In this document: one piece after another, positions 35,767 to 40,355 of the stretch
How the letters are laid out: every line of letters starts with the position of its first letter
How positions within the stretch are numbered: the stretch's first letter is position 1
Source of the DNA: Radicibacter daui
Lineage (GTDB): Bacteria; Pseudomonadota; Alphaproteobacteria; Radicibacterales; Radicibacteraceae
Assembly: GCA_030657355.1 (NCBI GenBank)
Contig: CP131056.1
Span: forward strand, 3,678,501-3,742,500
Direction: 5' to 3'
Length of the DNA stretch: 64,000 nt
Made by a program: the position numbers and the translations under genes
Notes under the pieces: model-generated
What the model saw: the letters and a program-made list of their open reading frames with translations, nothing else
The model's database searches: none
Told to the model about the DNA's origin: nothing

Positions 35767-36288
35767 TTACCAGTCGTCGTCATCGCCTGCCGGCTTGACC
35801 GGCGGCGGCAGGTCTGCGGGTTTGGCGGATGCCTTGCCCGCTGCAGCAATGCCGGTTTCTCCGACCTGCGCCTCACGCTGCGCGACGGGGCTCGCGGCAT
35901 TGCCCGCCAGCCCCCGTTCGGCCTTCAGCGTCTCCAGCTCCTGGGTGAGGCGGCGCTGGGAGGCGACGAGCATGCGCATGAGCCCGGCAATGAACGGGTC
36001 CACCCCCTTCATCTTTTCGCGCAGCATCGGTTCGGGGATCACCAGCACGGCGGTATCGACGAGCGCCGAGGCATGGGCCATACGTGGCTTCTGGTCGATG
36101 AGTGCCATCTCGCCGAAGATGCCGCCTGGCTCGATATATCCAAGGATGCGCCGGTTCTCGGCCTCACCCTGCCAGATCTGCACACGGCCACGCTCGACAT
36201 AATACATCACGTGGCCCGGGTCCCCTTGCGAGAAGATACGGGTACCGGCCTGGAAGACGCGACGGGAAAAGGCGGACTGGATGCTCAT
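35767..36288 (-). CDS. Cyclic-nucleotide-binding domain protein without DNA-binding domain
   Basis: 173 residues from the ATG at 36288 (MSIQSAFSRRVFQAG). Residues ~5-115 form a cNMP-binding beta-barrel; the phosphate-binding cassette is GGIFGEMALIDQKPRMAHASA, keeping the Glu and Arg that hold the ribose-phosphate. A helix follows (FIAGLMRMLVASQRRLTQEL), then a Pro/Ala/Asp-rich disordered tail ending DDDDW. There is no helix-turn-helix, so it is not a Crp-type transcription factor. It is divergent from the STAS/HATPase/phosphatase operon, suggesting, but not proving, a shared signalling role. Confidence 0.85.
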   Translation of the reverse strand: MSIQSAFSRRVFQAGTRIFSQGDPGHVMYYVERGRVQIWQGEAENRRILGYIEPGGIFGEMALIDQKPRMAHASALVDTAVLVIPEPMLREKMKGVDPFIAGLMRMLVASQRRLTQELETLKAERGLAGNAASPVAQREAQVGETGIAAAGKASAKPADLPPPVKPAGDDDDW

Positions 36289-36477
36289 GATTACCTGATT
36301 AGGCAATGCCCTGGCCCCGGTGTCGAGACCACGGCCAGTCTGGCGCATACCCATGAACCGGGCAAGACTGGCAACCTATTCCAATGCACCTCATGGTGGC
36401 CGCTAATCGCCTTTGACCACTGACCTTTTACCTACCATCATACCTTCCTCGCACAACCGTAAGACGCCACGACATCC

Positions 36478-36783
36478 ATGGATTATTCAATCGATTCCGC
36501 CGGCGAGAAGACGGTCATCGCCCTCAAGGGCCGGCTGACCTTTACCGATCACGCCTCCTTCCGGGACCTGATCAAGAAGATGCTGGACGCGCCGCACAGC
36601 GATCAGGTGATCGATCTCTCCGCCCTGGATTTCGTCGATTCAGCCGGGCTTGGCATGCTGCTGATCGCCCGCGAGGAATTGCACGGGCGTGATGCGCACC
36701 TCTCCCTCGCCCACCCGCACGGGCAGGTCCGCCAGGTGCTGAACGTGGCTCATCTCTCAAAGATCATCGAGATCGTCGAGTGA
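36478..36783 (+). CDS. STAS-domain anti-sigma-factor antagonist
   Basis: 101 residues, a single STAS domain. GRLTFTDHASFRDLIKKML near the N-terminus and LSALDFVDSAGLGMLLIARE near residue 50 are canonical; S55 in DSAGLG is the phosphorylation site that the cognate HATPase kinase would target. In partner switching the unphosphorylated antagonist traps the anti-sigma kinase. It is first in a tight cluster with the kinase and two phosphatases; 109 bases separate it from the next start. Confidence 0.93.
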   Translation: MDYSIDSAGEKTVIALKGRLTFTDHASFRDLIKKMLDAPHSDQVIDLSALDFVDSAGLGMLLIAREELHGRDAHLSLAHPHGQVRQVLNVAHLSKIIEIVE

Positions 36784-36892
36784 CAGGGCCGGGCCGGCCC
36801 AGAGCCTGCCTGCAACAGGATGACATGATGAAGAGATCAGCCATCCTCCGGCCCGCCCGGCAGACGGCCTTTCTCGGGGAGTGGCTCCTTCC

Positions 36893-37606
36893 GTGAGCAA
36901 TGCCTGGCCAAGACCGGTTTCCGCTGACCTGCCCGCGAGCCTCCTCGCCGGGCTGGCACCGGCTGCGGGCAGCAGGCCGGCGGGAGCGGAACTCACGCTC
37001 TTTCGCTCGGTTGCCACGCTCGACATCGCTGCCGCGCTGCGCGCTCCCGGCATGGGCGCCATAGAATGGACGGCAGGTCTGCCGGCCCAGTCGGTTGGCG
37101 CCCTGCTGGAACGGGCGGCGCACTACCAGCTCTATCTCAACATCTCCACCAATGCCGCCGCGCAGTTTGATCTGGCCCGCCCTCTTGCCGATGCGCTTGC
37201 CGCGCGCGGGCTGCTCTCCATGCGGGCCTATGCCGACACCGAGCTGGCACTGCACGAGGCAATCAGCAACGCGCTGATGCATGGCAATCTGGCTGTCGAC
37301 AGCCTGGGGGCACTCTCTCTTGCCGAACTCAGCCGCTTTTCGAGCCAGATGAACAGCCGCCTTGCCGACCCGCGCCACGCGGAACGGCCGCTGGAAATCA
37401 CTGCCGGGCACGAGGAGGGCGTCACCTTCGTGGAAATTCGCGATGAGGGTGCCGGCTACGACAGCGCAGCTAACGCCGCCCGCCACACCACCACGGCCGG
37501 CGGCTCGCCGCCCTCCGGGCGCGGCATGACGCTGATCGCCGACCTCACCGCAGGTTATGAGATTTTCGATGGCGGCCGCGGCATCAGGCTGAGGCTGAAA
37601 CCGTGA
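36893..37606 (+). CDS. HATPase (GHKL) anti-sigma-type serine kinase
   Basis: 237 residues from the GTG at 36893, placed 11 bases after GGGGAG; a GTG at 36881 is the alternative. The C-terminal half has the RsbW-type ATP site: N box ELALHEAISNALMHGN near residue 120, G1 EIRDEGAGYD and G2 SGRGMTLIADL. Between N box and G1 is a longer than usual insert (~50 residues). The first ~100 residues are not a domain I know. It would phosphorylate the STAS protein or bind a sigma factor. The stop overlaps the next start by four bases (GTGA). Confidence 0.85.
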   Translation: MSNAWPRPVSADLPASLLAGLAPAAGSRPAGAELTLFRSVATLDIAAALRAPGMGAIEWTAGLPAQSVGALLERAAHYQLYLNISTNAAAQFDLARPLADALAARGLLSMRAYADTELALHEAISNALMHGNLAVDSLGALSLAELSRFSSQMNSRLADPRHAERPLEITAGHEEGVTFVEIRDEGAGYDSAANAARHTTTAGGSPPSGRGMTLIADLTAGYEIFDGGRGIRLRLKP

Positions 37607-38859
37607 CTCTGGCCGGCGCCGCTGCCGTCAGCGCCACTGAATTTGCTGCCCTGCCCGACGCGCTGAAGGGCAGCACCATTCTGGTGGTGGACGATAACAG
37701 CTTCAACCGCACCATGATCGGCGCCCTTCTGGGCAAGGCCGGCTTCAACCGCCTTCATTATGCCGCCAGCGGCATTGAAGCGCTGCAGCAGGCCGCACAC
37801 CTCAGGCCCGATCTCATCATTCTCGACATCATGATGCCGGGCATGGACGGTACCGAAGTGCTGCGCCGCCTGCGCGCCGAAGGCGAAGAGCGCGACGTAC
37901 CGGTGCTGGTACAGACCGGCCTTACCGGCAGCCGCGAGCGCGGCGAGATTTTCGAGAACGGCGCGACCGACCTCATCAACAAGCCGATCAACCCGCAGGA
38001 GTTGGTCTCCCGCGTCGCGATCCATCTGCAAAACCGCCTGCTCATCAACGATCTGCGCGCCTACCGGCAGCGGCTCGAAACCGAGTTGATGCTGGCCCGC
38101 TCCGTCTTCGAGCATCTGATGCCGCCCGAGCGCGTGATCGCCGGCATTACCGAGGCCAGCGGGTGCCGCCTCTTCGGCCGCACCGAAGCCTCGCAGGATC
38201 TGGGCGGCGACCTTTGGGGCGCGCTGCCGCTGGAAGAGGGCAAGTTTGCGCTGTTCGTGGCCGATGTGGCCGGGCGCGGCATCACCGCCGCACTCGTCGC
38301 CCTGCGCCTCCATACCGTGCTGCGCACCGTGGCCATGCGCTCGCCCCCCGGCACCAGCCCCGGCGAATTTCTGACCGGCGTAAACGCGGATTTTGCCGCC
38401 CTGCTCGACCCAGGCCAGTACGCCACGGTCATCGCCGGCATTTATGACCCGCGTGACGGCTTTTTCTATTACGCGCTTGCCGGTGCCAACGCGCCGCTCA
38501 CTTATGGCGATGCGGGGTCCACCCCGGACGTGCTGCCGGGCATGGCGCTCGGCCTTGCACCAGAGACACGGTATGAAACCCACCGTATCGCGGTGCCGCC
38601 GGGCGGGTTGCTGCTGCTCTATTCCAACGCCCTGGCTGATCTTCTGGCGAGCCCGGCACCGGAAGCCGAACGGCATGAAAATGGCGAACGCGATATCCTG
38701 AACCTGCTTGCCTCCGTCGCCGAACCCGACGGCCATGTGCGGGCGGCCACGCTGATGGAGCGCATCGGCCAGTTGCGCACCCACCAGCGGCTGGAGGATG
38801 ACCTGACCATCGTCTGTGTCGAGCGGCCCGCCGACGCGCAAACAGGGGGCCCGGCATGA
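37603..38859 (+). CDS. Response regulator with PP2C-type (RsbU/SpoIIE) phosphatase output, copy 1
   Basis: 418 residues from a GTG. Residues ~24-145 are a full receiver: acidic pair D30-D31 in VVDDNSFN, phospho-acceptor D75 in LDIMMPGMDG, Thr in QTGL, Lys in INKPINP. A helical linker leads to the phosphatase domain (~200-410): LGGDLWG, FVADVAGRGITAALVA, and LEDDLTIVCVE at the end, giving the acidic metal ligands of PPM enzymes. The GGDxYD motif is altered to GGDLWG. It should dephosphorylate STAS Ser55 when activated by a sensor kinase not found here. Confidence 0.9.
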   Translation: MTLAGAAAVSATEFAALPDALKGSTILVVDDNSFNRTMIGALLGKAGFNRLHYAASGIEALQQAAHLRPDLIILDIMMPGMDGTEVLRRLRAEGEERDVPVLVQTGLTGSRERGEIFENGATDLINKPINPQELVSRVAIHLQNRLLINDLRAYRQRLETELMLARSVFEHLMPPERVIAGITEASGCRLFGRTEASQDLGGDLWGALPLEEGKFALFVADVAGRGITAALVALRLHTVLRTVAMRSPPGTSPGEFLTGVNADFAALLDPGQYATVIAGIYDPRDGFFYYALAGANAPLTYGDAGSTPDVLPGMALGLAPETRYETHRIAVPPGGLLLLYSNALADLLASPAPEAERHENGERDILNLLASVAEPDGHVRAATLMERIGQLRTHQRLEDDLTIVCVERPADAQTGGPA

Positions 38860-40085
38860 CAGGCGCCCCGGCAATGCCGCAGGAAGAGGGCGGGCTTGGC
38901 CTCAACTACTCCAATGCCCGCATCATGGTTGTCGATGACAACCAGCTCAACATCACCCTCATCAGCGCGCTGTTGCGCAAAAGCGGCCTGCGCAACATCG
39001 AAACCGCAGCCAACAGCGAGGAGGCACTGCACCGCATCGAGGCGGCACCGCCCGACCTGCTGCTACTCGATATCATGATGCCGGGACTGAGCGGCTTCGA
39101 CGTCTGCGCGCTTTTGCGCAAGGACCCGCGTTTTGCCACCCTGCCCATCATCATGCAGACGGCGCTCAACCGGCCGGAAGACCGGGCGCATGCCTTCTCC
39201 GTCGGCGCGACCGACTATATCGTCAAGCCGCTGAACCCGGCCGAGCTGCTGGCGCGCGTGCGCATTCACCTGGAAAATCAGGCGCTGATCCGTGACCTGT
39301 CGCTCTATCGCCGCCGCACCAGCCGCGAGCTGGAAATGGCCCGCTCGATGCAAATCCGCATGTTGCCGAGCCTTGGCGAACGACAGGTGATGGCCGAGCG
39401 CTGCGGCCTTTCCGTCTCCGCCCGCTTCGAACCATCTTCGGAGCTTGGCGGCGATTTCTGGGGCATGCAGCCGCTCGATGACGGCCGGGCGCTCGTCTAT
39501 CTCATGGACTTTTCCGGCCATGGGCTTAATGCGGCACTCAACACCTTTCGGGTGCACGCCATGCTGCGCAACTGGGATTTCCAGGGAAAGACACCGGCAG
39601 GCGCGCTCAGCGAACTGAATGATGCGCTCTGCCCGCTACTGCCCTCCGGCCAGTTCGCCACCATGCTGCTCGGCTATTTCGATCCGGAAAGCGGCGGTTT
39701 TTCCTATGCCTCGGCCGCTGGCACCGCCCCCATCGCCCTCGGCCCCACCCTGAAGCCCACCTGCGGCCCCAATGCCGGCCTGCCGCTCGGCATCGTGCCG
39801 AACGTCACTTATGACGATCACCGGCTGGAGCTGCCGCCGGGCAGCTGCCTGCTGCTCTACAGCGATGCCGCCATCGAGACCGAGGTGGATGGCACGCTCT
39901 GGGGTGAAGAAGGGCTGCTGGACTTCACCATCGGGGAATGCGAGCGGCAGATGGCGCTCGGCAGCCACGATCCGGAAGAGTTCCTGACCCGGCTCAGCCG
40001 GCGCCTGCACGGACCGCGTGCCCAGCCGCTGACCGATGACCTGACGGCGCTGATGCTGACCCGCAACATCGACGTGGCCCATTAA
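38856..40085 (+). CDS. Response regulator with PP2C-type phosphatase output, copy 2
   Basis: 409 residues; the ATG overlaps the previous stop (ATGA). Same architecture as copy 1: receiver with D27-D28 (VVDDNQLN), D72 (LDIMMPGLSG), Thr in QTAL and Lys in VKPLNP; phosphatase with LGGDFWG, YLMDFSGHGLNAALN and TDDLTALML. The GGDxWG variant is shared by both copies, which points to tandem duplication, but the two have diverged a lot elsewhere. DFSGHG here is closer to the textbook DVSGHG than the DVAGRG of copy 1. Two inputs converging on one STAS switch is the simplest reading. Confidence 0.9.
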   Translation: MTGAPAMPQEEGGLGLNYSNARIMVVDDNQLNITLISALLRKSGLRNIETAANSEEALHRIEAAPPDLLLLDIMMPGLSGFDVCALLRKDPRFATLPIIMQTALNRPEDRAHAFSVGATDYIVKPLNPAELLARVRIHLENQALIRDLSLYRRRTSRELEMARSMQIRMLPSLGERQVMAERCGLSVSARFEPSSELGGDFWGMQPLDDGRALVYLMDFSGHGLNAALNTFRVHAMLRNWDFQGKTPAGALSELNDALCPLLPSGQFATMLLGYFDPESGGFSYASAAGTAPIALGPTLKPTCGPNAGLPLGIVPNVTYDDHRLELPPGSCLLLYSDAAIETEVDGTLWGEEGLLDFTIGECERQMALGSHDPEEFLTRLSRRLHGPRAQPLTDDLTALMLTRNIDVAH

Positions 40086-40187: not shown

Positions 40188-40355
40188 ATGACAGCGCTTG
40201 TTCTCGGCATCATGTGCGGTGCCAGCCTCTATTCCCTCGCCCTTGTCCGCTGGCCGAGCCTGGCGCGCAGCTTTCTGGGCGCCATTGCCGGCTTTCTCTT
40301 CGCGAGCGCCATCGGCGCCGGCATCGCCTGGCTGATCGCTTCGGCAATTGGTTGA
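40188..40355 (+). CDS. Small membrane protein, 55 residues
   Basis: ATG at 40188. The product starts MTALVLGIMCGASLYSLALV and ends AGIAWLIASAIG: two hydrophobic helices (residues 2-20 and 29-53) joined by RWPSLARS, a helical hairpin with its basic loop probably in the cytoplasm. There is no good ribosome site and no known family. The hydrophobic pattern over the full length argues against a chance frame. It lies between the phosphatase cluster and tRNA-Leu. Confidence 0.5.
   Translation: MTALVLGIMCGASLYSLALVRWPSLARSFLGAIAGFLFASAIGAGIAWLIASAIG

Follow-up and report, generated by a model that had tools for sequence, protein, structure and literature searches.

A partner-switching module encoding a candidate receiver-pseudophosphatase next to its predicted active paralogue

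Genes at the locus

Pfam searches and inspection of the sequence place five genes between positions 35767 and 40085 of the window, i.e. the whole stretch of 64,000 nucleotides that was analysed (Table 1). These code for a STAS antagonist, a HATPase kinase (KIN), two proteins in which a receiver precedes a PP2C fold (RP1 and RP2) and a divergently encoded cyclic-nucleotide-binding protein (CNBP).

Table 1. Features of the partner-switching locus, in window coordinates
Feature	Position	Strand	Remarks
CNBP, single-domain cyclic-nucleotide-binding protein	35767..36288	-	Pfam cNMP_binding; divergent neighbour
Weak sigma-70-like promoter match, divergent intergenic region	36413..36441	+	1 found vs 0.6 expected by chance
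STAS, single-domain antagonist, candidate phospho-acceptor Ser55	36478..36783	+	Pfam STAS_2, STAS
KIN, RsbW/SpoIIAB-type HATPase (GHKL) kinase	36881..37606	+	HATPase_c_2; GTG start 36881 or 36893
RP1, receiver + PP2C fold, interpreted as pseudophosphatase	37603..38859	+	Response_reg + SpoIIE; Asn342
RP2, receiver + PP2C phosphatase, all three metal-ligand Asp present	38856..40085	+	Response_reg + SpoIIE

The STAS protein (STAS_2, 2e-16; STAS, 1.4e-15) is 50% identical to that of the Azospirillum cavernae module, and its Ser55 lies within FVDSAG, of which the DSAG motif is invariant in the STAS alignment, so that a phosphorylatable residue is present. KIN has an alpha/beta domain of ~90 amino acids ahead of the HATPase domain (HATPase_c_2, 6.4e-13), and retains E126, N130, D188, G190, G192 and the GRG at 213-215, with E126, N130, D188, G190, G192 and G215 being invariant. 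These residues represent the N, G1 and G2 boxes, which are intact. In Foldseek searches the AF2 model of KIN (pLDDT 86.2) best matched LvrC, a receiver-HATPase protein, followed by SpoIIAB/RsbW.

The stop of KIN and the start of RP1 overlap by four bases (GTGA, 37603-37606), as do RP1 and RP2 (ATGA, 38856-38859); STAS and KIN are separated by a gap of ~100 bases, with no overlap. When the start codon closest to the preceding stop is chosen, the RP1/RP2 overlap of four bases recurs in 41 of the 46 tandem loci of relatives, and the KIN/RP1 overlap is of four bases in 30 and of one base in 15 of the 46. The preliminary description had treated the STAS (Ser55), kinase and two receiver-PP2C genes as a single expression unit joined by four-base overlaps after the kinase; all these genes and both overlaps were verified, and the single unit is supported. 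Its statement that no sigma factor adjoins the module holds as well, as none of the 17 Sigma70_r2 matches over the cut-off genome-wide lies in or near it. The divergent gene also proved to be as described there, with a cNMP_binding domain (5.8e-21) and no other domain, and hence no DNA-binding one, and with FGEMALIDQKPRMA as its phosphate-binding cassette. Judging from the upstream sequence, 36288 is a likelier start for CNBP than 36354, where its ORF opens.

Active sites and history of the tandem pair

We compared 47 tandem sets, that of the window and 46 from Azospirillaceae; as these relatives come from one family, and mostly from one genus, the 47 RP1 proteins do not amount to independent losses. 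Among 82 genomes of the order of genome G050, 71 had a KIN match and 60 regions were taken, 44 (26 + 18) with the tandem pair and 16 without it; L027, L036 and the window itself make up the remainder of the 47. Loci L028-L035 and L037-L040, which show the same residues, were excluded from the counts as duplicates of sampled regions, to which they were assigned for the most part on the length of their contigs. Single relatives number 34 (32 + 2 new); the receiver-PP2C proteins of L169-L172 are the RP2 of tandem loci and were not counted as single.

Pfam recognises both a receiver and a SpoIIE-type PP2C domain in RP1 (Response_reg, 1.1e-25; SpoIIE, 6.7e-32) and in RP2 (5e-29 and 2.4e-35, respectively). 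In the window both receivers are complete, having the acidic pair, phospho-acceptor Asp, Thr/Ser and Lys. The phospho-acceptor Asp and the Lys are identical in 47/47 RP1 receivers, and the acidic pair and Thr are present in every aligned RP1 row.

The metal ligands of SpoIIE are described as D628, D746 and D795 (PMC5468089, PMC8080068). RP2 has all three Asp residues of an active SpoIIE-type PP2C, whereas RP1 lacks the D746-equivalent: in the window it is Asn342 (YSD to YSN), with Asp221 (D628-equivalent) and Asp400 (D795-equivalent) being kept. Across the sampled sets an Asp occupies the D746-equivalent position in 0/47 RP1, as against 47/47 RP2 and 34/34 single relatives, and is replaced in RP1 by V (21), T (13), N (9), A (2), S (1) or E (1). 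The D628-equivalent, likewise universal in RP2 (47/47) and the single relatives (34/34), persists in 23 of the 47 RP1, a second ligand thus being gone in the other 24, and the D795-equivalent and the Asp of the GGD motif are kept in 45/47 and 43/47. RP1 proteins of Azospirillum often lack two ligands, compared with one in RP1 of the window, which is among the least degraded of the 47. The Asp that is missing from RP1 is retained in P. aeruginosa RssB and in Rv1364c, the closest relatives of known structure. Furthermore, three pocket positions that are invariant in RP2 (RP2 numbering) are rarely or never conserved in RP1, with F219 kept in 0/47, H222 in 3/47 and F267 in 0/47. We read RP1 as a conserved receiver-pseudophosphatase that is predicted to be co-translated with an active phosphatase, RP2. 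The earlier view of the pair thus stands in that both are receiver-bearing PP2C-fold proteins with intact receivers, but not in that they are equivalent phosphatases.

In phylogenetic trees all RP1 proteins form one clade (support 100/99; single origin in 99% of 200 bootstrap trees), in which RP1 of the window is sister to all others on a long branch (1.5), and RP2 proteins likewise form one clade (100/97). These separate clades point to one old tandem duplication. The PP2C domain of RP1 is only 33% identical between the window and Azospirillum, compared with 51% for the RP2 orthologues. Median dN/dS over 12 pairs was 0.245 for the RP1 PP2C, 0.162 for the RP2 PP2C and about 0.09 for both receivers; judged from such ratios, the RP1 clade is under purifying selection. 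Conservation in RP1 versus RP2 is 0.83 versus 0.74 for the linker helix and 0.85 versus 0.83 for the switch-like helix, but other parts of the PP2C domain drift in RP1 (0.58 versus 0.79 in region 301-335). RP1 accompanies KIN and RP2 in 47/47 loci.

Decay of the RP1 gene was ruled out, as the ORF is open in 47/47 loci, dN/dS is well under 1 and the receiver is intact. A reservation is that selection constrains the PP2C half slightly less in RP1 than in RP2, the pair L156/L163 reaching a dN/dS of 0.57. A search of a plasmid collection with an Azospirillum RP1 as query gave no match.

Chemotaxis context and related systems

In Azospirillaceae the same four genes, STAS, KIN, RP1 and RP2, are found at the end of a che operon. 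Among the 13 named Azospirillum loci CheA lies upstream in 12, and CheD, CheB and a second MCP are present in all 13. These upstream genes fit the list given for the Azospirillum Che4 (F7) system, which includes CheS, CheA4, CheB4, CheR4, Tlp4a and Tlp4b (PMC8561660), the match to A. brasilense being one of gene content and not of sequence; the portion of that account used here gives che4 nine proteins and does not mention a STAS-KIN-RP1-RP2 set. Since the module closes the che operon in Azospirillaceae, the CheA of that operon is probably its phosphodonor there. In the present genome the module stands alone, detached from che genes: the 64,000 nucleotides of the window contain no Che4-type operon, and the single CheA found in the genome, 39% identical to that of Azospirillum, is far from the module and has no module genes beside it. 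No histidine kinase was found near the module and no FlgM match in the genome; a second STAS gene (L078) and a third PP2C gene (L079, with a T6SS VasE gene nearby) lie elsewhere, neither being tied to the module.

Receiver, PP2C, HATPase and STAS functions also occur together in CrsR/CrsA of the Shewanella oneidensis che1 locus and in HsbR/HsbA of Pseudomonas aeruginosa. The former is reported to sit with CheA, Y, W, R, D, B and two MCPs (PMC9855816), and outputs of such systems include RpoS, FlgM and HsbD (PMC6482189). However, CrsR and HsbR are single fused receiver-PP2C-HATPase proteins, whereas in the present module STAS, KIN and the two receiver-PP2C proteins are encoded separately, and one of the latter pair is catalytically impaired. 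RsbY of Bacillus cereus and RsfR of Mycobacterium smegmatis, each a receiver with an active PP2C working on a STAS antagonist, are a model for RP2, but in the parts of the source consulted no second, inactive receiver-PP2C comparable to RP1 is described for them (PMC10950880). Phosphorylation is reported to increase the activity of RsbY and to decrease that of RsfR (PMC10950880), so by analogy the sign of receiver control in the present module may not be predictable.

The best solved fold for the full-length RP1 model (AF2, pLDDT 90.6) was P. aeruginosa RssB (Foldseek, VIA; VIA Z 28.5, rmsd 11.7, 355 residues), with E. coli RssB at Foldseek ranks 5-8. Like RP1, RssB joins a receiver to a PP2C fold, and the E. 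coli protein has also lost its active-site residues (PMC7226468), so that RP1 shares with it the architecture of a receiver followed by a PP2C fold without the full set of phosphatase residues. P. aeruginosa RssB, however, still carries the Asp absent from RP1, and RssB acts as an adaptor in the degradation of RpoS, whereas RP1 adjoins an active paralogue together with its STAS and its kinase. As RssB is the receiver-PP2C for which full-length structures have been solved, the match does not single out one function. A literature search combining pseudophosphatase, response regulator and PP2C returned a plant PP2C paper as its sole match, and a D193A PP2C mutant was not found.

A proposed partner switch

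Based on these observations we propose, at a probability of about one half, that the module is a partner switch with one working phosphatase and a non-working sister, RP1 serving as a receiver-bearing regulatory subunit rather than as the partner in an OR gate. By analogy with its family KIN would phosphorylate STAS at Ser55, and RP2, governed by its receiver, would dephosphorylate it. Because it lacks a metal ligand, RP1 should not dephosphorylate STAS, even though its PP2C fold, its linker helix and an intact receiver are kept; being made from the same message as RP2 and adjacent to it, it most likely works by protein contact. SpoIIE-type phosphatases are described as being activated by dimerisation via switch helices, and RssB as a pseudo-PP2C that retains the switch (PMC5468089). 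We favour an RP1-RP2 heterodimer, in which the activity of RP2 would be set by phosphorylation of both receivers, in Azospirillaceae probably by the CheA of the operon that the module closes. More tentatively, RP1 may be an obligate regulatory subunit under two-component control whose dead PP2C domain sets the live RP2 in the heterodimer, thereby linking a Che4-type CheA of Azospirillaceae to STAS in a path that bypasses CheY; the module of the window would then be a form released from the chemosensory operon.

Alternatively, RP1 could be a decoy that binds STAS or its phosphorylated form without hydrolysis and keeps RP2 away from it, the receiver of RP1 controlling how tightly RP1 binds, so that RP1 would oppose RP2. 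The loss of hydrolytic chemistry from a protein that keeps the fold, the receiver and much of the active-site frame, including the GGD Asp and the D795-equivalent, would suit such a role, as would the matched amounts of RP1 and RP2 expected from coupled translation; the altered pocket positions, through which binding of phosphorylated STAS may also have been lost, count against it, and we regard it as unlikely. RP1 might instead still be a phosphatase, perhaps weaker or with fewer metals, in line with the OR or graded gate of two independently phosphorylatable phosphatases put forward in the preliminary description. In the window one of three acidic ligands is altered, and conservatively (D to N), so that some residual activity may persist, and about half of the RP1 proteins keep the D628-equivalent; we nevertheless regard this as improbable, as the catalytic Asp is never found in the 47 RP1 and never missing from the 47 RP2 or the 34 single relatives, and more than half of the RP1 proteins lack a second ligand.

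Similarly improbable is a single cNMP-gated module in this genome, with CNBP acting on STAS. The genome has two strong STAS_2 genes, each adjoining a cNMP-binding gene, which lies downstream in the case of the second, and cNMP_binding-SpoIIE fusions occur in 2/2 genomes of one genus, in which the STAS-KIN pair has no adjacent phosphatase. However, CNBP is divergent and not co-transcribed, and its neighbourhood, the conservation of which the preliminary description had made decisive for its idea of the module, is not conserved: at distances of up to about 9 kb CNBP matches occur in 0/13 Azospirillum loci with long flanks and in 2/49 named KIN loci (27% in L059, and 39% in L060 of M. moscoviense, in a different arrangement; both are treated as weak), and neither STAS nor KIN occurs within 1.5 kb of any of 29 CNBP relatives. 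We no longer count CNBP among the conserved components of the module, a weaker STAS-cNMP link surviving through the second strong STAS gene. Least probable is an RssB-like adaptor role of RP1 for another client, e.g. delivery of a regulator to a protease, away from STAS, for although RssB supplies the closest full-length solved folds and its E. coli form lacks active-site residues, that match cannot choose a function and RP1 is tied to KIN and RP2 at every sampled locus.

RP1 and RP2 may offer a natural series for an idea of Bradshaw and colleagues, who proposed that a PP2C fold can go through pseudoenzyme stages in which the allosteric switch is kept (PMC5468089). In this old and always co-encoded tandem pair catalysis would have been lost from RP1 stepwise, a single ligand being gone in the window and in several relatives and two in many Azospirillum proteins, with the receiver, linker and switch-like helix being kept. 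Furthermore, the arrangement suggests that a Ser/Thr partner switch lies at the end of the Azospirillum chemotaxis operon, whose CheA may thus serve another output in addition to the flagellar motor.

An active-site residue lost in one of two sister receiver-phosphatases

The module comprises genes for a STAS protein, a HATPase kinase (KIN) and two receiver-PP2C proteins (RP1 and RP2), with a divergently transcribed cNMP-binding gene beside them. The four-base overlaps reported in the preliminary description are borne out by the sequence, GTGA being common to KIN and RP1 and ATGA to RP1 and RP2. Within the host genome (two contigs, 5.06 Mb) RP1 and RP2 supply two of the three SpoIIE-type PP2C matches, the STAS gene is one of two strong STAS_2 genes, and KIN is the best-scoring of 14 HATPase_c_2 matches. 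The third PP2C-like gene combines HAMP with a weak SpoIIE match and lies near a VasE-family type VI secretion gene. About 100 bases 3' of RP2, ahead of a tRNA-Leu gene, is a hydrophobic ORF of 55 aa, possibly a small membrane protein.

Coordinates of the module and of related features in the window, the host genome and relatives
Feature	Location	Strand	Basis
cNMP-binding protein, STAS, KIN, RP1, RP2	window 35767-40085	minus for the cNMP protein, plus for the other four	sequence, Pfam
N-terminal 90 aa of KIN	window 36881-37150	plus	
Hydrophobic ORF	window 40188-40355	plus	
Other strong STAS gene, then cNMP-binding gene	L078 8026-8337, 8461-9018 (host contig C1 ~1721025-1722018)	plus, plus	
Third PP2C-like gene	L079 (host contig C1 ~1161600)		
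cNMP_binding-SpoIIE fusion	L115 1129-2634	plus	
cNMP_binding-SpoIIE fusion	L249 814-2079	minus	
Two tandem STAS genes ahead of kinase (MAG loci)	L042 8182-8824; L051 1056-1705		

SpoIIE binds metal through D628, D746 and D795 (PMC5468089, PMC8080068). All three aspartates are present in RP2 of the window, and its RP1 has D221 and D400 with Asn342 at the D746-equivalent position. Relatives were gathered by a KIN-alignment scan of named genomes (49 loci) and by searching the order to which Azospirillum cavernae (G050) belongs with a KIN profile, which matched in 71 of the 82 genomes searched, all matched relatives belonging to the same class as the window genome. KIN was followed by two receiver-PP2C genes in 44 of 60 fetched regions, which together with loci L027 and L036 and the window gave 47 RP1/RP2 pairs. 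The aspartate is absent from every RP1 (0/47) and present in every RP2 (47/47) and in all single receiver-PP2C relatives (34/34); the D628-equivalent is likewise retained by every RP2 and single protein, and by 23 of the 47 RP1. Because the 46 relatives with the tandem pair come from one family, we count their loss as one inherited and retained event, not 46. The window RP1 and some of its relatives carry Asn at the position where other RP1 carry Val or Thr, a pattern that would fit an early change of D to N with further change later.

RP1 keeps all receiver positions, and most structural Gly, Pro and Ala, that are near-invariant in RP2 and the singles, diverging at pocket positions F219, H222, F267, D337 and L396 (RP2 numbering). 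In the linker and switch-like helices it matches RP2 in conservation, and the RP1/RP2 overlap persists in 41/46 relatives. Median dN/dS over 12 pairs was 0.245 for the PP2C domain of RP1 and 0.162 for that of RP2, with 0.096 and 0.088 for the receivers. In a tree of 92 rows both proteins form single clades (RP1 100/99; RP2 100/97), the window RP1 lying outside all Azospirillaceae RP1 and the window RP2 outside the others; the tandem pair is thus older than the split of the window's order, represented here by the window genome alone, from Azospirillaceae, or was exchanged whole. KIN itself occurs at E <= 1e-15 in 27/387 genomes of the class, own included, and the tandem pair was absent from the gene tables of the seven fetched regions outside Azospirillaceae bearing KIN at this threshold.

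The AlphaFold2 model of RP1 (pLDDT 90.6) has a receiver, a long linker helix and a complete PP2C fold. Its top full-length match is P. aeruginosa RssB (VIA Z 28.5, 355 residues, rmsd 11.7), the rmsd indicating that the two domains are set at different angles, followed by the PP2C domains of SiaA and Rv1364c. The aspartate lost in RP1 is present in P. aeruginosa RssB and Rv1364c, the nearest solved relatives. The KIN model (pLDDT 86.2) joins an alpha/beta N-terminal domain, which matched no Pfam family, to an RsbW/SpoIIAB-like kinase; its best structural match, the Leptospira response regulator LvrC, aligns over both domains, hinting tentatively that the N-terminal one might be the remnant of a receiver-like domain.

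Linkage to chemotaxis genes in relatives

In A. cavernae the module closes an operon with the order STAS-like gene, CheY, CheA, CheW, HAMP-bearing MCP, CheD, CheB, second MCP, STAS, KIN, RP1 and RP2. The same order recurs in genome G307 (L244) and two more genera (L243, L245), and the second MCP stands immediately 5' of STAS in 26/26 and 18/18 fetched tandem loci. CheB, CheD and the second MCP are found in all 13 of the named Azospirillum loci whose upstream sequence was long, and CheA in 12. The remaining locus is that of Azospirillum sp. TSO35-2, where CheA and CheW were not found in the upstream sequence examined (L031, and L246 further upstream); CheB, CheD, the MCPs and the partner-switch module are retained there. 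This content agrees with the published Azospirillum che4 cluster, of class F7 (PMC6759762), whose nine proteins include CheA4, CheB4, CheR4, CheS, Tlp4a and Tlp4b (PMC8561660); going by that list, the STAS-like gene in A. cavernae is CheS. In the window genome the module genes are not beside the single CheA found, which is located elsewhere. Several Azospirillum genomes (L169-L172 with L186, L187, L189 and L196) carry a second, convergent STAS-KIN-RP module with a single phosphatase a few kb from the tandem one, and two MAG loci have two STAS genes ahead of the kinase.

The cNMP-binding protein

This protein has a single CNB domain with an apparently intact phosphate cassette. Relatives at E <= 1e-15 occur in 54/387 genomes of the class, own included. 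The preliminary description made the protein part of the module, to be judged by its conservation beside it; since neither STAS nor KIN comes within 1.5 kb of any of the 29 best relative loci (own excluded), that proposal fails. A cNMP link is still alive by two other routes. The other strong STAS gene of the host is also followed by a cNMP-binding gene, so that both strong STAS genes have such a neighbor, the two pairs sharing 34% and 33% identity. In addition, cNMP_binding-SpoIIE fusions are encoded in 2/2 genomes checked from a genus in which no phosphatase gene adjoins the STAS-KIN pair (L239, L240); of nine long or open ORFs fetched for relatives of the cNMP-binding protein, one (L249) gave a PP2C match and eight gave none.

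Proposed mechanism and known systems

By its STAS protein, kinase and RP2, the module is a member of the RsbV/RsbW/RsbU family and works like it. From knowledge of that family, KIN would phosphorylate Ser55 of STAS, RP2 would remove the phosphate, and a histidine kinase would modify the receivers. Receiver control may run in either direction, because phosphorylation raises the activity of RsbY but lowers that of RsfR (PMC10950880). By context, Shewanella CrsR/CrsA, itself in a che locus (PMC9855816), and Pseudomonas HsbR/HsbA (PMC6482189) are the closest systems. With less confidence, we suggest that RP1 is non-catalytic and might act by binding RP2, which we favor, or else STAS-P or another client. 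E. coli RssB is, like RP1, a receiver-PP2C protein lacking the full set of active-site residues (PMC7226468, PMC5468089); an adaptor role would be one candidate function for RP1.
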